Assembly (NCBI RefSeq): GCF_036370855.1
Contig: NC_088099.1
Location: 140,561,517-140,625,516, forward strand
From: Dromaius novaehollandiae
Lineage: Eukaryota; Chordata; Aves; Casuariiformes; Dromaiidae
Direction: 5' to 3'
Length of the DNA: 64,000 nt
This document shows positions 5,005 to 54,096 of the stretch, piece by piece. The position numbers and the translations under genes were made by a program. The notes beneath the pieces are model-generated. The model did no database searches, was not told the DNA's origin, and worked only from the letters and a program-made list of their open reading frames with translations. How positions within the stretch are numbered: position 1 is the first letter of the stretch; each line of letters starts with the position of its first letter.

Positions 5005-8000
5005 CTTGGTTTCTAAAGGTGCTTTAAATACTTGCCAGAGTTTCATATAAATCTGTCTCAGTGGCTGCCATACACATTCCCTTCTGTTACAGCCTGAAAT
5101 ACTGCCTTAATGATATTTCTGTGAGTATTAGTGAAATTGATTGGGAATGGCTCCAATTTATACTGATGCATCTTAAATTTCTCTCTGAAGTAGGTCTTGA
5201 CTGAGCTCTGTCTAACTGCTTCTCTAATTCAGAAAGCCTCAGAGTATGGACATACAACTTCTGCTGGTCCTAATTGTTTGCAGTTTGGAATTCATGTTTT
5301 TTTCTTAAACATGTTACCAAAGCTGCAAGCACTAATATTTATAGCAGTTTGTGTCTGTTTCCAGAAATATCTGAAAAGCTTCTTTTTCTCTTCTCTCTCT
5401 CTCTCTCTTCAGGGTACATGTGGTGATGATGATATGATAGGGACTGAAGCAATAGCAGAGTTTCTAATTAATAGTGAGGAGACAAAAGTGGTAAGTAGTA
5501 TACTTTTTTCAGTGTTAACCTTTGCAGCTTCAGTCTTATTTCAGACCTAACCAAAGTTAAACTTCCAGTACTTCATGCATCAGTAATACATTCTGCCTTT
5601 ATTAAAGTTTGGTGTTGTCACAGTTTAGGACTTCTTTCATAATGTAATGAATACTTTTCAGCTGGACTGGTCTAGTAAATTCTGTGTATATAGAAATTTC
5701 AAACCTAGTGACTTGTAGTTGCTATATGCAATTGCATCAGACGTGACTCTTAAGATAAATATAGGTGTGGGTATCTTTAGTAATTGGACATTTGAATGTA
5801 ATAATACTTTTTCTTTAGCAGCAACAACAAAAATCTAACATATCTCCACAGGCAAGACTAAAGCTCTTTCCCCATCAAACAGGGGAGCTACATATTCTGG
5901 GAGTCGTTTATAATCTTGGCACTATTCAAGGTGCTGTGGCATTAGATGGAATAGATCCTTCTGTTGGATTACAGACAGGTAAGTATATTATTCCCTTAAA
6001 CTGTGTGCCTGTGGAAGGAGGAGACAGTGATTCTTCAGGGTTAGAACTAAATTCTGTTTAATTTGATGATCGCGTTATGAGGGTTTCCTTCAGGTTGAGA
6101 TGGAAACAAAAGAAATTCATAAAACTGGCATCTGTAGAAATCCCATGAGAAGGGGAAGCTGGAGTAGAAGGGGAAGTAGCTAGTTATCTTTGTTGGAACT
6201 TAATTCCTTTTAAATTTAGAAATTCTGAAACCATTAAAAATCAAGTTAAGTATTCCATGTATGCCATGTTGCATCTGTAACACCTTTTGACTCCTTTGCT
6301 GCCACTTCTGGCTCTTAGTTTAACCTTTACCCCCCCCCCCCCAACTTTTTTACTAGTATTGCTCTGAAGTTCTTTGGTATAGGTTCCCAAATTTAAATTT
6401 GGTTGATGGGACTTCTGTCTTTAAGCATTTCACTTTATTTTGGCTATCTTTCCTTTATATTAAAATATAAATGGTTATTACTTGCATGTCACTGCTTTTG
6501 TTGAGTTGTTCACCTGAAACGCTTTCCCATAGGGAAAACTTAGTTGTTGGAGGAAACGGGATTAAAACAGGTATTCGAAAGTGCTTAAAAGAAATAATGA
6601 AGCTTGGTTAGCTGTATACAGATGCTTTTTGTTCTAAAGACTTATCCATAGTGTAAGCTTTCAATTTGAGCAGTGGTAGCATGTTTTGATGGAGGAAAAA
6701 AATGTGTTGGGGTGTGTGTACATGTGTTGTCCTTCCCCCCTCCTATCCCCCCCCTCCCCCCGCCCTTGGCACTTAAATCAGAAAATAGAACAGGATCATC
6801 TTGACTCTTTCAGCAGCCCCCTGCCACCCCAAATTTGGCATCTCTATTCTCTTAGGGCTCTATACAGTTGTAGTCCCACTGTTAAAGGGCAGAGCAAGTC
6901 CGAAACAAGACATTTGACTGTCTGAACTTGCAATAGCAAAACATTTTGCATGACAGTGAACTGAATAGTTTTGTCTGCAGTGATGCTTAATCAGTGAGCA
7001 TTGTGTATTGCCCAATAATAGAAAATTCAAAATGATTTTTACAATTGGGGAGGGAAATTGAGATTAATACTCAGCAAAATTTAGAAGTTATTAAAAAAAA
7101 AAAAAAAAAAAACCAAAAAAACTACTTCCTAAAACATGTTTCAGGGAAGTTTGTCTCCAACGGATTGTCTGTACGAGGACGACAAGATTTAGAAATCCAA
7201 GGGCCTCGACTTAATAATACAAAAGAGGAAAAAACATCTATTAAATATGGACCTGATCGACGTTTAGATCCTATTATTACAGAAGAAATGCCTTTGTTGG
7301 AGGTACATAGCTATTTTCTATTGGTAATTTTGAGCAAATTTTGGAATCTGAAGATATAAATGTAGTTCTAACCAAAATGTCTAACCTTTGTTAATGTCTA
7401 AAGTTAATTTCTGACCTGTCAGTGCCAGACTTGTATTTTCTTCAAGTGAAACTTGAAGTCTCCAAACTAATACCCTGCTGTAATTGTTCTATTCCCTTTA
7501 GAATTTTAGTTGGTGAGGGCTTTTGTAACCAAATTACAAGAGAGGAGCGGAATGGGCAGATTTTTTTAATTTTTTTGCCATTCTTCATCTTGAATACAGT
7601 CCATAAAGTTGTTTAGTTCAAACACTGGTTTTCTTGCTAGGATTATGTAATGGATGGATTGTTTAAATCTGATTAATGATAACACCCTATAGTTTAAAGT
7701 TGGTGGTGGTGGTTTTCATTCTTGTTCATAACTTGTCAATGTTCAGGTTTTCTCTCCTCTTTCCCCTTCTCTCCAATACAGGTGTTCTTTATAAATTTTC
7801 CTACAGGGCTTCTCTGTGGAGAAATCAGAAAAGCATATGTAGAATTTGTGAATGTAAGCAAGTGTCCCCTTACTGCCCTGAAGGTTGTGTCCAAGCATCC
7901 GGAATTTTTTACTTTTGGTGGAAATACTGCTGTTCTAACGCCACTAAGTCCTTCAGCTTCTGAAAACTGTAGTGCTTACAAGACTGTTGTGACAGATCCT

Positions 8001-11000
8001 ACCTCTGTGCGTACAGCACTGCTGTCTTCAGCTTCCTGTGTAGACTTTGGGGTTGGCACAGGAGGTCAACCAGAGGTGATACATGTCCCACTTCCCGACT
8101 CTGTTCTTCTTCCTGGGGCTTCAGTGCAGCTGCCAATGTGGTTACGAGGACCAGATGAAGAAGGTGTCCATGAAATTAACTTTTTGTTTTACTATGAAAG
8201 TATTAAAAAACACTCAAAAATGTGGTAAGTTTTTTAAAGCTATTTTTGTCATACTTAATAATCTGTTATGTTTAACTACACGCACTGTAAACATAAGTGT
8301 TACTGAATTTCTCTGAATTACTGTGGTGATGTAAAACAGTGGCCTGTTATCTGCTATTCTAAGTTTGTGCAGTCTAAAAGCAGTAATCTGTTTTCTGCTA
8401 TGTGATCTAACTTCTAAATGAAATTACATAGACCATATTGCTTCCATCAAAGTGCCAAATCACTCTTTCTTGGTAATTCAGGAGTTGATGGAATCCTGTT
8501 AGGACAGGCTGTGTTCATAGTCAGAGTTTCTTGGGAAGCACATCCCTTTCTCTGAGCAACAGGGGAGAAAATTCATGGCTTCATTTGTTGCTTCTACATA
8601 TTATAAAACAAAATCTTACCTACTTTGAACTTAAGATTTCTGTCATCAGTTAAAATGTGGCTAGTGATTATATTATGAAAATTATTCTTTTTGGAAGGGT
8701 TACAAATACCATGTTTGTCACTTGCATGCTATTGGGATGCAGAAGGACAGTGAAAAAACCCTAGAAGGCCTTGTTAAAACTAGAGGTATTAGTTCAGTTA
8801 ACTAGCTGAAGGACAACTTTCTCAGCTTGCTCTTCTTTCTATAGCTCCTTTTTGGACCATTCTTGAGACAATGGATAGTTGAGTTTGACACCACAAGCTA
8901 GCAAATAGTGTTTTCCTTGAACTTTACTTCAAAGGGAGTGAGATGACTTTTGTTATGCTACTTATCCTTAAGTCCCTCCCTTGTCCCAGGCTAACAAAGC
9001 TCAGGAAGTCTTGCGTATTCTCCCATAATTTATAATTTTCTGGCAGAGGGAAGTCACTCCATTTTATCATGGAGCTGTATGTGCTAGAATCATTCATCTG
9101 GAGAACACTTTGGCGATGTCTGCATTAACAACTAGTGCAGAGTAGGAGTGAATCTGTAGAGTGGGTACCACTAATTTCTCCTCCAGAGACTTTTACAAAA
9201 GGCTTGCTGGCCTGAAGGTTGAGCTTGTCTAGATGCCAATGGGAAGAGGACAGAATAATGACAGTTATAAAAGTCAGCTTTGAAAATCCTCGTTTCAGGG
9301 GAGTTCTTTGAATGCAGCCATATTCTGTCTTCATGCTTTAAGTATTTATGCAGCAGATATGACTAGTGGACCTTTTAGAGTTTATTTGCTTAAAAACTGT
9401 ATTTCCCATAATACGTGCTGGCATCAAATACTTAATTACATCCCTATGCCAGTAAATGCCTGTTTGCTTTCTCTAGGCCAGCGGTCCCATATCTGAAATG
9501 CTCATGATGTATTTTTCTTCATGGTAACATCTGAACTTTCCCTTGGTATTTTTAACAGGCTAAGACACTGCATGTTTGAACAGCACGTTTTCAAATACCT
9601 ATCCATGCTGCATAGTTGTCTATGCTATACTGTCAAAAAGACAGTATGTTAAAAAGAAAAGTATCTTTTCAGTGGTGGAAAAGAATAAGCTGTCTAATGT
9701 CCTTAATAACAATGGCAAATGAAAAAGTTAAACTTCTTGATGAGAGATTCTAGATGGCATTCTTGGTTCTGAAGAATGTCTTTTTCTTCTCTCCCCTGCT
9801 CCCCTCCCCTCTTTGTCTTCTCCTTAGCCACAGGGTATTAAGGCACACTGCAGTTATTTGTACTAGCCGGTCTCTGCATATTCGAGCTACTGTCTGCAGA
9901 AGTAATGCACTTGAAGATGAAGGCAAAGGGGATAATATGTTGGTGTTTGTGGATGTAGAAAATATCAATACTGTAAGTTCATATTAAAAATAACTATATT
10001 GTTCTTAAGTTCAGCAGATATATAAATGTCATCAGTAAAGCCAATATTGAAGTAAAACCTTTCTTAAAGCCACTTCGACTGGAAACGTTAAGTAAACCTT
10101 GCACATTTAATCATTCCAGTTAATGTTAGTGCTTCTTTCCAACAGTAAGTCATTGGTCAAAACTCACTGCAGAAATTTGCTGTAACATTCTCTTCATGTA
10201 TTACAGTACCGTGAGTCTTTTCCTTGGCCTCCTGTAGGATGACTTATTTTAAATTCATACATGTTCTTGATGCTCACAGCTTTCATGATGGTTCTGAAAG
10301 AAACACCTTCGCCCTGCCTCTTTCAGTCAAAACACTAGCATGGTAGAATTAATGATAACCTGAAGTCAAAACTTTTACTCAAACTTGAAGGAAGCATCCT
10401 TGTCTAAATTTACTAGCCAAACTCTTAAACAGGTTCCCACGCGTATAATCCAAACATAGATGTCTGTTGTGGTATGTTCACTTAGCACAGCAGATGAAAA
10501 TATTTCAGTTTTTCATACTACAATATTTTAAATTGACTGCTTTTTGGTAAAGCTGCTGCAGCTTTTTGAACAACAAAGCAGAGTAGTTTAATGCTCTACT
10601 TAGAGCTCTTAAGCATTTAACCTGTTAGCTGAATCACTGACCTGATAGGTCATTTAGTGTTAAAGGTATGTAAAATCTGATGATCTTCAGCTACTAAAGT
10701 GAATATTGCCCAAGCATTCTTTGAGGAGGCAGGATTGTATTATAAAGTACTTACTAAGTTAACTGATATAACATTCTATGCAATTAAATTTTTGCTACTG
10801 CCTCACTGTTTCCAAAAAAGAAAAGCAACAGAAAAGCTGCTTTTCACCATGTATGTATGTAACTGCTTTTTGAAAAAATAAAAAAAAGTTACTGAATGAT
10901 CTAGCAAGTTTGCTGAAGTCATTCTGGAGGACTAAGTGGCCTTGTGGACAGTGTTCTGCACTGGAGTCAAAAGCCTAGGTTTGATTAGTGGTCTTTAAAT

Positions 11001-33628: not shown

Positions 33629-36004
33629 TCAAAATACTTTAACTTTTGGATGAATTTTTTTGAGTGATAAATGAGGTAGGAAGTAGCCTGTCAAAATCAA
33701 AAGTAAAATTAAAATCAGAAGGCCTATCAGTGTGGCCTGAAAACTTAAGTAGGTCCTGGGAAAGGCACCATAGACGTAAATTGAGAAGGTTATGGTTAAG
33801 TCACAGTAACTGTAAAATGTATCCACTATAATGGCTTTAAAAACATACAGACCATTGTATGGAGGGAAAATGATCTTATTTTTGCCTCCACCAAGAACTT
33901 GATACTTGACTGAGGGCCACTTTAATTCAGGTCCATTCCTGTTCTTACAGCTCATATAGTTTCTTCTGGTCCATGCAGTATGTGGGTCTGGAGATTCCTG
34001 CTCTTTTAGCAAAGCAGTCCAATTTTGAGGTTGAGAGAAACAATTGGCATCATTGGCGGTCAAAAGATAATCATAGTTATGCATTCCATTTATTTCAAAC
34101 ATAACAAATTCAGCAGAGACATGCTCCTGAAATGCACTGTTTTCCCATAACTCAAGAATTGGCACCCAAGGATTTTTGTAATATACCAGAAGAGGACATC
34201 CTAGATTCTTAAAATCATATTTGATCTGTAGATTATCTTGCTGTATATTTGGCCTGGCAAGAAACTGTGGGTCATATATTTCATAGCTAATTGTGTAACT
34301 GAAATTCTTCTTTAGTACTGCTTCCTGAATGAGGCCTTTGTCACATGCCGTTATATTTTTAAAAATTTGAATATGCTTTGTAGGTGGACAGGACACTGCA
34401 ACAAGTGCAGTCAAAGGAGCCACATCAATACAGCCAATGCCTTTGTCAGGGATATCCACAGTGATAGTAGATAACTCACCATCAAGTAAGCCATAACAGA
34501 AATCATGCTCTGCAAAACCAGAGAAATACTGCTGCTGCAGACCTATGTGCAGAAGATATTCGGTGTTTCCATCATACGTAAATCCTCTTTCTAATATCTT
34601 TGCACTGAAAGCCAGCACATGGGGGTTGCTCACTGTCACCAGGGGAATGGATGTTTTGCCTCGCTTGGGCACAAACGTGGCATTCAAAGTCAGGTTCTTA
34701 TGCATGTCAATGTAATAGATCTTGTTCTGGAAATTTCCTTCAAGGATCTCCACATCACAGGACTGCTGAGATCTCCGGACTGCCAACTGCAAGTTGAATT
34801 TGCATTTCTTGAAGTCATACAGTTGAGAAAAATTGCTCATCACAGGGCTGAGTAAGGTCAGCCACCCTCTTTCTTCAAACAGCATCACTGTGGTGTTCAA
34901 ATCTATGCTCTCGTCTGTGGCAATATACACCACAGTAGTGACCTGGCTGATGCTGCCATAGAAGACTTGCTTGTCCTGGGTCAAGACTGCAATCTCAGAC
35001 CTGCTAACAGTCACAAGGGAGAAACCACAGTTGGGGAAGGTAGTGTTTTGAAACTTCTTTGTTGGCATGACAGTCACTTCATCCATTAACAAGCCATTGT
35101 TGGAGGACACAAGCAAAATGTCTGTTGTCCAGAGAATGAGGAAACCCCTCAAGCCAAGATTATGGATACTCCAAAGTTTAGCAGGGCCTTTGGACAGCAG
35201 GCGGAAGACTGCAGAGCTGTAGTTGGGCACATGGTTGTTCTCAGTACCAAAGTATTTAAAATAAGCCCCTGCTGCCTTCCCTGTCTCATCCCCTCCAGTT
35301 CTGTTGATCAGCAGGCCAGTCAGGCCAAAAGAGTTGAAATTGTAGACACCAAGCAGCATGCCTCGCTCTCCTGTACTGATCTGCATGCGTGTGAACGTGT
35401 AACCCCCGTCCTTCGAAAGGAAGATGTGGCTCTTGGAGACAGAGTGCCCTGTGTCGTAAGCAAAAAGGGTCCAGCTGACCACCTTGCACTGGGAGTCCTC
35501 TCCTGTGTAGCAGCAGTGGACGTTTGAGAGTTCGGACACGGATGAGCTGACTCCTGCTGATGGGACCCATCTGTCAGGGCTCTTGAAGTACACATAGACC
35601 CGGCCGTTAATCACCATTGAAACTCTGTCCGTGTGCACAAAGGCGATGGCGCTGACGACAGCTTCTTTGGCCTCAAGTTCTTCTGGGATGGAGAGCGGGG
35701 AGAGGCTGGACTCAAAAGTAGTCATGCTGATAAAAACAAACTTCCCCAGGTACACGGACATCTTTTGTTTGTCCCAGGAGCTGTACTTGCTACAGGGGTG
35801 CTGCAGGAGGATGGGCTTGGTGCGGGTGTAGCTCACCTGGGTGCATCTCGCTGCCTTCGTGTCCTTGGAGAATGTGACCGAATACACCAGCTGCTCGTTG
35901 CCGCAGCGCAAGCAGCTGCTGCTGCCCAGCAAGCAGAGCCACAGCCACAGCTCAGCCCTGCACGCCGGCCGGGGCCGAGGCACTGGTGCCGCTGCTGGCG
36001 CCAT
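33629..36004 (-). CDS. CATSPERD: CATSPERD, intronless (retrogene) copy of CatSper channel auxiliary subunit delta
   Basis: Single uninterrupted reading frame of 791 codons, close to the roughly 800-residue mammalian protein. CATSPERD is a single-pass membrane subunit of CatSper, the alkaline-activated calcium channel of the sperm flagellum. The product has an N-terminal signal peptide (hydrophobic core about 19-31), a large ectodomain with YLGKFVF (about 85-91), CCYTG (164-168) and SIPLVTVSNPH, then CPLLVYY (603-609), FSIYVYGAFP (about 740-749), one transmembrane helix (about 757-776) and a 15-residue basic tail. Around ten N-glycosylation sequons occur (NRT, NYS, NTT, NFS, NLT, NAT, NIT, NWT). 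The start at 36002-36004 (GACATGG, purine at -3 and G at +4) fixes the signal peptide; the frame stays open upstream to 36112 without another ATG. The mammalian gene has over 20 exons, so an intronless copy indicates retroposition. No stop or frameshift is present. The cytoplasmic tail is shorter than in human. Confidence 0.93.
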   Translation of the reverse strand: MAPAAAPVPRPRPACRAELWLWLCLLGSSSCLRCGNEQLVYSVTFSKDTKAARCTQVSYTRTKPILLQHPCSKYSSWDKQKMSVYLGKFVFISMTTFESSLSPLSIPEELEAKEAVVSAIAFVHTDRVSMVINGRVYVYFKSPDRWVPSAGVSSSVSELSNVHCCYTGEDSQCKVVSWTLFAYDTGHSVSKSHIFLSKDGGYTFTRMQISTGERGMLLGVYNFNSFGLTGLLINRTGGDETGKAAGAYFKYFGTENNHVPNYSSAVFRLLSKGPAKLWSIHNLGLRGFLILWTTDILLVSSNNGLLMDEVTVMPTKKFQNTTFPNCGFSLVTVSRSEIAVLTQDKQVFYGSISQVTTVVYIATDESIDLNTTVMLFEERGWLTLLSPVMSNFSQLYDFKKCKFNLQLAVRRSQQSCDVEILEGNFQNKIYYIDMHKNLTLNATFVPKRGKTSIPLVTVSNPHVLAFSAKILERGFTYDGNTEYLLHIGLQQQYFSGFAEHDFCYGLLDGELSTITVDIPDKGIGCIDVAPLTALVAVSCPPTKHIQIFKNITACDKGLIQEAVLKKNFSYTISYEIYDPQFLARPNIQQDNLQIKYDFKNLGCPLLVYYKNPWVPILELWENSAFQEHVSAEFVMFEINGMHNYDYLLTANDANCFSQPQNWTALLKEQESPDPHTAWTRRNYMSCKNRNGPELKWPSVKYQVLGGGKNKIIFPPYNGLYVFKAIIVDTFYSYCDLTITFSIYVYGAFPRTYLSFQATLIGLLILILLLILTGYFLPHLSLKKIHPKVKVF

Positions 36005-36250
36005 GTCCTGTGCGGGGCGGCTGGGCCGGCGCAGGCTGGTGGTGGCAGTTGGTGGCAGGGCGCGGCCTCCTGTGGGCGCCCTGGCTGCGGCACCAGCCGG
36101 GCCCCGAAGCAAGCGCTGCTGGCCACAGCGCCTTGCTAGCTTGAGGTGGGGAAACGCTGAGGAAAGGAATAAAATGAGGAGGAGCCTCCTTTTGGCCAGG
36201 CTTCCCTTGGCTGCGGGGTTTCTTTGCGGCTCCTGTCTGTCCCTGCCTCA
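35870..36250 (-). promoter_or_regulatory. CATSPERD: CpG-rich 5' region of CATSPERD
   Basis: GC- and CpG-rich sequence covers the first codons and about 250 bp upstream of the ATG, in contrast to the AT-rich flanks. It may act as the promoter of the intronless gene. No clear TATA box is seen. Part of the GC-richness belongs to the Pro/Ala/Arg-rich signal peptide codons. Confidence 0.4.
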
Positions 36251-46800: not shown

Positions 46801-48403
46801 TGGTCCTTCAATGGGATGGGTATACATTATCACCTCTGCTTTATCTTGAATAATGAGTTGTCATTTATTACAGTCTACTTAGCCACATCTGAAAATCATC
46901 AGATGTCTCATTATTTGCTACACTTGGCAGAGATAGATCCTCAGCTGGTGAACCTATGGTAGAATCATTCAAGTACATGAAAGATTGTCCCAGTAATGTT
47001 CTCATGGAACATCAAGGCATGCAGCACAGAAGGATGATGAGAATAAAATAGCAATTCCATCAATACATTTTAACAGTAGAAGCAATGTGGATAGATCCCA
47101 CTCTTTTGGTTTCCATTTAAAAGCTCTTTTTAGCTTTTGAAAGAGTGTAAAATACCAAATGAAAGAGGTATCACAGAAGACTCTAAACCACAAAGTCTTC
47201 CCTATATGCCATCTTATTCTTGAATACTGCATAACGTGGATGGGAGATTTTGCACTATTAAGCACTGCATGAGTGAAGTGGAAGTCTGTAAGAAAATGGA
47301 ACCTCAAGTTATGCCAGTGGGAAAGTTAGTTACATAAGTAAACGTCTACAAATATAGGGGGGGGAAAAAAGCCATTTATTTTGCAAGAAACTAAGGTCAA
47401 CTGTGCCTAACAGGAAAACATGGTTAGTCCTATGCTTCAGCTGCCACCAGATCTGCCCGTGGCATTTCTGGTGCCACATTACATAAGGACTAGCAATGAA
47501 TATAATCTTGTACCATCCATTGAACTTACCCAGCTCCTGCCCATCAGGATATGACGTAGTCGTCCTGGGACACAGAATGCTTTTGGGATTCTGGTGTGGG
47601 TTTGTGGCCTTGCTCTTTGGAGCACTCCTAATTTTATCAGTTTTCTCTTATGCAGAAAATAACTTTCCAGCACATTTTCCTGGAATATGAATGTGGAACT
47701 CCTAGCTAATTATTTCCATAATTATTTAGATCAAGGAGAGATTCAATGTGAGGATCAGAATGTCCCACAACAGCCAACACCACCTAGTACTGGTCACCAT
47801 TTAATGAAGATTAGATGGATGTGGCAGATCCCATAAAGCCTCTAGACAATTTGTTCCAGGCACTACAGATACTTACCCCAAATGGAAATGTTAAGAAAAA
47901 CACACTACCTAATTACTCTGAGGACTTGCAGGCCACTGGCAAAACAGCTGCGGATCAAGCTTGGGGATAAGTGTTATGTGTGTCCTATTGAAATTTTTAA
48001 CGCTCTGAGTAATGGTGCCCCTATGTTACAGATGGAGGAAAGAAGGCAGGAGACTAACTTGATTACAACTGTAGGAGGAACTGGTCTCAAAGCCAGAGCT
48101 AGAGTACAGAAAACTTTGTTCTCAGCTGACTGAAGCTCACAGTATCTTCTGCTGTTGTGCCAGTACTTGTCAAGTCCAGAGCAGAAATCCCTAAACTTCA
48201 GTTTACTCATCCAGCACCATCAGTGGCAGCAGCAGCACCAGTAACTCCTGGCTCTGCGCCTGCTGGCATGGGTGTGCAGGAGGGCATGCTCGGCAGTTCA
48301 GACAGCTCACATGTTGCTGAGTTGGAGGGCCTCTGTGCTGCTAGTTGTATCTAGGTCACGGTTACAGAGCGGCAGCTTAAATTATTTGCTTCTGGTTGGT
48401 TAG
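40885..48403. other. Intergenic, nothing recognised beyond simple repeats
   Basis: Contains AT-rich sequence (41320-41400), a C15 tract at 45216-45230 and many short random ORFs. No exon of the expected downstream neighbour B4GALT6 was found. Confidence 0.55.
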
Positions 48404-51560: not shown

Positions 51561-53825
51561 CGCTGTATCGGTGCTAAGACTTCTTATTTCTATGATACAG
51601 ATAGGAGGCTAGATGGAGAAAAAAAAATAGCTAGCTGTCAGAAAGATTTTCTGTTGCGTATCTTTTCTGTTTGTGGATTGTTTTGTTCCTTGTTGCCACA
51701 TTGTCGTGTTTGCAATGTCAGTTCTAGGACTTGGGGAATTATGGCAAAATCTTGGTTTGAATTTAAGCAAGCTACTATCCTAATGCCAAAAGCTTGAAAA
51801 CGTGATTTCCTACTGCAGCTGAATGTTAAGCAAAGAATAAAAATCCAGAATTTACTCTCTTAAAATCTCATGGTCTATAAGACATTAAGTTCAGCCTGGG
51901 GGCTGCACTGTGTGAGTTTAATGCTCGGGATGTTGGTAGAAGGGCCAATTTAATTGATTCTTCTTGCACTGTCTTTGTATATTTTTTCAAGTGTATTACA
52001 GCCTGTGATAGCTTAGAGAATTTTTTCTCTGACTTTCTGAGCATTCGTTAGCAAACTTGAGATTTGATTAGTGAAGGTGAAGGGAGATGGATTTATTCTT
52101 CATTTCTTCGGCCACTCATAAACTGAGTATGCTTTGGCCTGAAACAGAACATGTTTCATATCTATTGAACAAATTTCAGTTGCAAGTTTGCAACTTGCTT
52201 TTTGTGAACAGCAAATCTAAATTCAGTTCAGAGGACTTCTGATGAAAAGAAAGTTAAATACCAGGAAAAGTAGGTCTGTTCTGATATGATAACTGCTGTT
52301 GGTATCTGTCTGCAATCCAGCTTGAGGTTTTTTTCCTTTGCAGTCAGAAAATGCAAAATTTTTAAATTGGGGCACAGTGTAGCACTTCATATCCTGTGAG
52401 ATTTGCCCTTTGTGGCTTATAGAGATATCTCTGCTAGCTTTGCATTGAAACAAGTTGTTGCTGCCCTGTACACGGCCAGAAGATGTTAGACATGCTCTGT
52501 ACACCAAGACTGTTTAATGGTGCTATTACTAAATAACTTTGAACTAGTTTGATTCCCATATATTCCAGAAGTAATGGGACATTGGGAGAATATGGCAAAT
52601 CCAAACCATATTTTAGTTGTAGTAAGGTTGGTGTCATCAAAGTGTTTGCATCCTTGGAACAAGGCAGGATTGGGAGGGAAGGTAATATATATTTTTCTAG
52701 ACCATCTGATAAAGACAAAGGCCAGCAAAGTGTGATTGCTAGCAACTGTGTCTCACTTGGATTTTGCTTCAACTTGTTATGTGGTAAAGGGATCATGTAA
52801 CTTTTTCCAGCAATATCTACTAACCTTTTCCTACACAGAGAAGTAAGATCTCTATCTGCTGGGTGACAGCAAGGAATAGGGCAGTTCTGCACTTCTTGTG
52901 CATTTGGGCAGGCTGTTCTCAGAGCTCCGAAAAGTTTCCAGGAAAGTGAGTCAGTTTAAAGTGTGGAATTAGCAGGCAGTGGGCTGCAGAGCCTTTGTCT
53001 GCCACATGCAGGGTGAGCATGGCCTCATTCAGGTTCAGGATATAACAGAGATGCTCTGTGAGCTTTTTTTTTTTCTTTATGTTGTGGAATTACAAATGAT
53101 TCACTCAGGGAGAGAAGCTAACTTGCAAGAAAGAGTATGGAAGGAAAGCATATGTGGATGAAAGTTGTCAGAGGTAGCTGAAAATCTCTGTTAAGGAGAC
53201 AAAATCCAATGTAAAGCTATCTCCCCCTTTCCCTCACCATTTTCATCTTCCCCTAAAACTGAGGAAGTATTTCCTCAGGGAAGAGAGAACAGATATACCA
53301 GGGAGGAATTAAAATTCAGAAGGGACTTAACTCTGCTGGAAATATATTTGTGTTATGTGGTTTAGTATTGGTCTGCAGCAGGTTCCCTTGAGCACTTTGT
53401 AATGTTTTGCTACGGCACTCTGCCTGGAGTCACTGAAGCTTGAAGAGCCCCTTAGAGCTTAGAGAACTGCCAGTTATCACCTTAAAGGAGCTTCACAAGC
53501 CTTCTGCAAGACCTTAGGACTAACAAAAATATCACATGAGACATAAGAACTCTCCCCTTAGTCGTGCAGAATTAGAATCCTTACTCCATATATTTCTTTA
53601 GAGCAGCAAATGCCTCTAGGCCTGATGCCATGAAGAAGGTTTTGGGGACTTTCTTAGAGCTGCCCTTGAGGAAGCTCATGGAAGGAGAGTGCTTTTATAC
53701 TTTTCTTCTGAGACTTGATGTGGAAGTCCTATGGTGTCAAGAAACTACAACCAATAAAAAGTTTTAACAAAGGAATGTGAGGCGGAGGCTTGATATTTAT
53801 GTAATCTTTATACTTGGCCAACTGA
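51561..53825. other. Intergenic, nothing recognised
   Basis: Only short ORFs. No mobile element is recognised. Confidence 0.5.
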
Positions 53826-53864
53826 AGAAGAAAAAAAAAAGAAAAAAAAGAAAAAAAACCCCAA
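53826..53864 (+). repeat. A-rich tract
   Basis: GAAGAA followed by A-runs broken by single G, ending in AAACCCCAAACCCC. The same style of A-run passing into ACCCC occurs at 2372. Confidence 0.7.
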
Positions 53865-53910
53865 ACCCCAAGATCGTGTCAGCAGAGCAAGAATTACAGA
53901 AAGCAGAGCA

Positions 53911-54096
53911 ATGACAGCTAAGAGAAACAGTGATGACAATAGAGAGAGAGTGATGCAGTTAGCAAAACGGATTGTTACCTGTCTTGCTAATAAGCTGGAC
54001 AAGGTAAATGACAGACAACTGAAATCCTTGGTTATTAAAGTAAAGAGCTTGAGGAAGAAAATTTTGCATGAAGTAAACTCCCTTTTAAAGGGCTGA
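53911..54096 (+). other. Small open frame of 61 codons, uncertain
   Basis: ATG to TGA frame whose product is Lys/Leu-rich and could form an amphipathic helix (residues about 14-58, with Leu/Ile/Val spaced by 3-4: VMQLAKRIVTCLANKLDKV). No family is recognised, and there is no splice or promoter evidence. It may be a chance ORF or a relic of something larger. Confidence 0.15.

Follow-up and report, generated by a model that had tools for sequence, protein, structure and literature searches.

The CATSPERD gene of mammals, which is divided into many exons, is the closest described counterpart of the gene reported here. The protein encoded in the window (the entire 64,000-nucleotide stretch of emu DNA that was analysed) has its domain order, transmembrane helix, cysteines and fold in common with mouse CATSPERD (CatSper δ, TMEM146; 7eeb_G). 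In contrast to the many exons of mammals, the window contains a single coding exon, and the mammalian gene presumably also occupies a position other than that beside TRAPPC8, where the window copy lies. The second relative, CATSPERE (CatSper ε, 7eeb_H), shares the C-terminal domain of the window protein, but the match is far weaker, and a distinct CATSPERE exon is located on contig C3 of the same genome.

Passages of two papers, PMC3155547 and PMC11289002, state that CatSper genes are absent in birds, and the 2024 abstract of the latter names CatSper1 as absent. According to passages of PMC6660944, CatSper genes were found only in Apteryx and Tinamus among the birds examined; the same source describes ostrich with three intact pore subunits and the loss of sNHE in birds. 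Passages of PMC6679542 report CATSPER1, CATSPER4 and CATSPERG in ratites, loss in neognaths and the survival of fragments of CATSPER3, CATSPERB, CATSPERD and CATSPERE in zebra finch, with a table flagging the synteny of finch CATSPERD as linked to human indirectly. The bird CATSPERB in a passage of PMC4290089 derives from a ratite only. The retention of CatSper by palaeognaths is therefore already known from the available passages of PMC6660944 and PMC6679542, which describe CatSper genes as kept in kiwi and tinamou. These passages make no mention of an intronless CATSPERD or of its neighbours, and a search of open-licence papers did not find an intron-free structure for this gene. The same pattern of retention and loss is described in PMC4509753 for STK33, a gene that palaeognaths have kept and that survives in neognaths as a pseudogene. 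A role in spermatogenesis has been suggested for STK33, the protein of which is unrelated to CATSPERD.

Coding sequence and encoded protein

The minus strand of the window carries an uninterrupted CATSPERD coding sequence of 791 codons and a stop codon (33629–36004), which runs from the first in-frame ATG at 36004 to the stop codon ending at 33629. The open frame around it extends from 36247 to 33632 and is not broken by any intron, frameshift or stop. A chance open frame was ruled out by simulation of 1000 sequences of the same length with an order-2 Markov model, in which the longest frame reached 311 codons (median 125). Third-position GC is 0.81 over the first 100 codons and drops to 0.32–0.36 in the last three blocks.

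Three Pfam domains are present in the protein: Beta-prop_CATSPERD (PF15020; E 1.3e-90, 304.6 bits; 34802–35839, corresponding to residues 92–437 of the 827-residue frame or 56–401 from the ATG), Ig-like_CATSPERD (PF23747; E 3.2e-50, 170 bits; 34394–34753, residues 418–537 from the ATG) and CATSPERD-E_C (PF22850; E 3.8e-79, 265.6 bits; 33665–34306), all exceeding the curated cut-offs of 27–28 bits. A search of PDB sequences matched mouse CatSper δ (7eeb_G) with an E-value of 1e-140 and CatSper ε (7eeb_H) with one of 8e-27. A Foldseek search with a predicted model (mean pLDDT 69; 49–61 for four other models) likewise returned 7eeb_G as the top match (E 4.1e-60, TMq 0.75, 34% identity), followed by 7eeb_H (TMq 0.60). 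The identification of the protein as CATSPERE was ruled out, since δ scores far above ε by both Pfam and PDB sequence.

A single C-terminal transmembrane helix (residues 755–779; 33668–33742) is predicted from the secondary structure of the model and the hydrophobic sequence. The hydrophobic stretch that follows the ATG (residues 1–33; 35906–36004) was assigned by eye as a putative signal peptide region, in which the model places a helix at residues 15–26 with pLDDT below 50. In an alignment of 11 sequences, 12 columns are cysteine throughout and a 13th is cysteine in all except condor; the window protein retains all of these. The preliminary description of this gene as a complete and intronless CATSPERD with ectodomain, transmembrane helix and conserved cysteines is thus borne out.

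Phylogenetic position and genomic context

A protein search identified 32 proteins, headed by those of Apteryx (91%), Struthio (88%), Rhea (87%), Tinamus (78%) and Eudromia (77%); the remainder come from neognaths and from turtles, a crocodile, lizards and a squirrel. A separate profile search, in which only 7995 candidates were scored, also gave 32 proteins, five from palaeognaths, eight from neognaths or unassigned, 18 from reptiles and one from a mammal. In a tree of 24 of the 32 proteins from the protein search together with the window sequence, the window CATSPERD falls within the palaeognath clade (support 98/98), sister to the neognath copies, in a bird clade with support of 100/100. 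The suggestion that the host might not be a bird was ruled out by this placement. As the proteins of kiwi, rhea, ostrich and tinamou are all clearly distinct from that of the window, elimination points to emu or cassowary as the host.

The CATSPERD protein has one match in the whole 1.468-Gb genome at E ≤ 0.001, and no multi-exon CATSPERD parent was found in that search. The C-terminal domain model likewise matched the window gene and the single CATSPERE exon on C3. The gene had been placed in an interval between TRAPPC8 and B4GALT6. The first flank stands, an exon for the third Ig-like domain of TRAPPC8 being present at about 7851–8222 on the plus strand (PF24544, E 1.5e-56). The second was not found: B4GALT6 (with a provisional human sequence as the query), TTR and RNF138 gave no tblastn match within the window, and B4GALT6 (same query) and TTR gave none in the next 80 kb beyond it.

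Putative upstream exon

The automatic CATSPERD model of ostrich (P0003) opens with MTSYPDGQE and only then enters the coding frame, and the window reads TSYPDGQEL on the minus strand at 47561–47530, directly before the donor CTGG/GTAAGT (the slash marks the splice site). This donor, GTAAGT at 47530, ranks 14th among the 1136 positive-scoring GT sites of the minus strand. On the same strand, the acceptor TTTTATTCCTTTCCTCAG/CG is located at 36156, which is 152 bases upstream of the ATG; a simple score places it 25th among 4654 AG sites. On the basis of one automatic ostrich model and the splice signals, the segment 47530–47561 (minus strand) is a candidate for the end of an upstream 5′ exon, and CATSPERD probably begins with a non-coding exon that lies 11.4 kb upstream of its coding exon. 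The segment 36005–36156 (minus strand) would then probably be 5′ UTR contained in the coding exon. Transcription would probably start at the non-coding exon near 47.5 kb, with splicing to 36156.

Intron-free structure and its possible origin

The presence of 791 codons without introns, compared with the many exons of mammals, points to a spliced RNA template, from which we infer that the gene passed through an RNA intermediate. Among birds, the intron-free DNA structure was read in the window only. The CATSPERD tree by itself is silent on the age of intron loss, as the same tree would be expected if the relatives had introns. P0029, a neognath-like copy that is unassigned, can be read without a break over 504 residues, part of which is frameshifted, and the ostrich model and the window have the upstream exon in common; on these grounds the intron-free gene is probably older than crown birds. 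A recent origin, proposed earlier as one explanation for the undamaged frame, is unlikely for the same reasons.

The preliminary description regarded the gene as a retrogene, the multi-exon mammalian gene lying on another chromosome. Such an origin is plausible, although unproven, since no parent remains and most turtle CATSPERDs with a stated contig size already lie on large contigs. Neither a poly-A tract nor a target-site duplication at CATSPERD was seen in the window, among 20 of the 33 repeat families listed; if the copy is old, either would be expected to have eroded.

An event older than birds, or a loss of the coding introns from the resident gene through recombination with a reverse-transcribed mRNA, is given even odds as the origin of the gene, in place of the insertion of a retrocopy on the bird stem, and is compatible with function. 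Of the six turtle entries with a stated contig size, five place CATSPERD on contigs of 256–288 Mb, and the window is on a contig of 170 Mb, which favours this origin, and turtles may share the position of the bird gene; the sixth turtle, Emydura, has its CATSPERD on a 14-Mb contig, which does not. The absence of an isoform label on the sauropsid entries as listed points weakly in the same direction as the large contigs. The retention of a 5′ UTR intron is consistent with intron loss in place that is biased to the 3′ end, and would fit here if the upstream exon is real. A passage of PMC3136929 describes very few retrocopies in chicken and attributes this to the CR1 reverse transcriptase, which also argues for the older or in-place origin. 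Conversely, the differences among the tortoise and Varanus models could mean several exons, or could be annotation artefacts. The deduction of a multi-exon turtle CATSPERD from such differences was not upheld, as they could equally well stem from an intron that is short or spurious.

Sequence conservation and selection

Constraint on CATSPERD was tested on proteins, using changes on the window lineage at columns with the same residue in kiwi, rhea and ostrich. Columns were defined as conserved if they do not vary among two tinamous, two turtles and a crocodile; these make up 44% of the total. Only two of the 29 changes on the window lineage fall in conserved columns (Fisher P 7.6e-6). Since substitutions on this lineage avoid conserved columns, the alignment indicates that the window CATSPERD is under purifying selection.

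The ratio of change in conserved to that in variable columns, calculated on a somewhat different column set from that of the preceding test, is 0.10 for the window and 0–0.24 for five other palaeognaths. The corresponding ratios are 0.38–0.49 for Gymnogyps, Sarcoramphus, Ciconia and Nipponia and 0.72–0.84 for Calidris, Charadrius and P0029, the neognath values being counted from the palaeognath consensus and including older, constrained branches. Shorebird copies show little or no avoidance of conserved columns, with weak constraint remaining in Charadrius (P 0.028). Parts of the Calidris and P0029 sequences match another frame of the window (in P0029, 53 residues at 66% without a gap), which indicates frameshifts in an unspliced stretch. 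With the neognath copies as a degraded control, the continued selection that had been offered as an alternative to recent origin is supported.

At columns where rhea and ostrich agree, the window lineage has 30 changes and kiwi nine (P 0.0008), mostly at variable sites. The corresponding counts are 42:21 and 37:15 with single outgroups and 25:8 with tinamou added. This acceleration to approximately three times the kiwi rate could be an early relaxation of constraint.

The faster evolution relative to kiwi, the degraded state of the related neognath copies and a CATSPER1 intron that ends in GG (see below) speak for a dead or dying copy, with a frame still open by chance and the CatSper of the lineage beginning to decay. 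This explanation is improbable, as there is a single CATSPERD in the genome, conserved columns are avoided on the window lineage, the exons of all pore genes are open and the five other palaeognath models have lengths of 758–784 residues. Of these models, those of kiwi and rhea are full-length and three are incomplete (ostrich and Eudromia without the start and Tinamus without the tail).

The CATSPERD of Gymnogyps californianus (P0006) is a 728-residue model that is annotated without a low-quality flag; it has no signal peptide, and its ratio of 0.44 indicates intermediate constraint.

Other CatSper subunits in the same genome

The partner subunits were read as exon matches rather than as full gene models. 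CATSPER1 gave two genome matches on C37 (868801–870800), a contig of 1.04 Mb, where six ordered aligned stretches lie within 2 kb, with the pore motif TLDDW and, in addition to the six, an S4-like stretch recognized by eye. The intron before the pore exon comprises 292 bases (positions 852–1143 of the 2-kb segment); it starts with GTATCCTT, which we take to be U12-like, and ends in GG instead of AG. No AG is present at the frame needed for the pore exon, and an in-frame TGA just upstream makes an earlier exon start impossible. An unusual splice site, a fault in the assembly or damage to the gene could each explain the GG end, and the gene may or may not be sound.

CATSPER2 is represented on C10 by seven colinear matches with the pore motif TMDHW and two apparent stops beside splice sites. 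The four CATSPER3 matches on C15 cover residues 83–368, and the splice borders of the five stretches examined look normal. CATSPER4 on C23 has five matches and six aligned stretches with the pore motif TQDGW, and its two apparent stops lie inside donor sites. For CATSPERB, six domain matches were found on C5, five of them above the cut-off and two with TAG at their edges. The CATSPERG propeller occupies about 2 kb of C36 (820463–822520) in seven segments without stops, six of which are above the cut-off, and CATSPERE is represented by its one exon on C3. Weaker search matches of CATSPER3 and CATSPER1 on other contigs are taken to be other channel genes. A search of all proteins with CATSPER4 showed no bird among the best 120 of the 249 matches listed, in which mammals dominate.

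Exons of all four pore genes are present in the genome, together with those of CATSPERB, CATSPERD, CATSPERE and CATSPERG, and palaeognaths are the birds reported to keep CatSper. Of the three options offered in the preliminary description, persistence of the complex in this lineage is the one favoured by these exons. The paradox of a δ subunit in a channel-less bird falls, since CatSper retention in palaeognaths is already published and the published loss concerns neognaths; CATSPERD is no longer a puzzling lone survivor, and its intron-free build is the remaining oddity. The statements of CatSper absence in passages of PMC3155547 and PMC11289002 would suit a CATSPERD re-used in a non-CatSper role after loss of the pore, an explanation made highly improbable by the exons of CATSPER1, CATSPER2, CATSPER3, CATSPER4, CATSPERB, CATSPERG and CATSPERE in the same genome.

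Functional implications

The window gene is best explained, with a probability of about 0.78, as the sole and functional CATSPERD of a palaeognath bird, the introns of which were lost via a spliced-RNA copy. The intact gene, the single genome match, the palaeognath protein orthologues, the constraint and the partner exons are observed directly; expression in testis and assembly into CatSper are presumed, as are the RNA-mediated origin, its age and the 5′ exon. The gene would have passed through the spliced-RNA copy probably before crown birds split, leaving the coding part without introns. The protein would enter the secretory pathway, most likely as mouse CatSper δ does, and its β-propeller and Ig-like ectodomain and one transmembrane helix would join the canopy over the CatSper1–4 pore beside β, γ and ε, so that the Ca2+ channel of the sperm flagellum can be assembled.

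A broader proposal can be made only tentatively. Since before crown birds, an RNA-derived gene with a single coding exon may have supplied an essential channel subunit, with the intron-bearing form gone (as an orphan retrogene or by wholesale loss in place) and with LINEs that hardly make retrocopies. The CatSper of emu and cassowary may now be changing course, as hinted by the evolution of δ at approximately three times the kiwi rate and by the GG-ending U12-like intron of CATSPER1, either in adapting to function without sNHE or in beginning the decay that neognaths completed.

The points that remain of interest are the intron-free sole copy, the acceleration on the window lineage, the odd splice end of CATSPER1 and the probable 5′ exon. 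The location of CATSPER1 on a 1.04-Mb contig speaks against the absence of CatSper1 claimed in the abstract of PMC11289002 and may explain why the gene was missed. A possible use of CatSper without sNHE by emu or ostrich sperm and a possible decay of the channel in the emu line can now be tested, and the single-exon CATSPERD lends itself well to dating intron loss in a fast-evolving multi-exon gene.

Additional features of the window

A search against Rfam at gathering thresholds gave no match in the window. A run of 60 A residues is located at 2313–2372. An A-rich tract precedes an open frame of 100 codons on the plus strand (53794–54093), the reading of which is rich in lysine.
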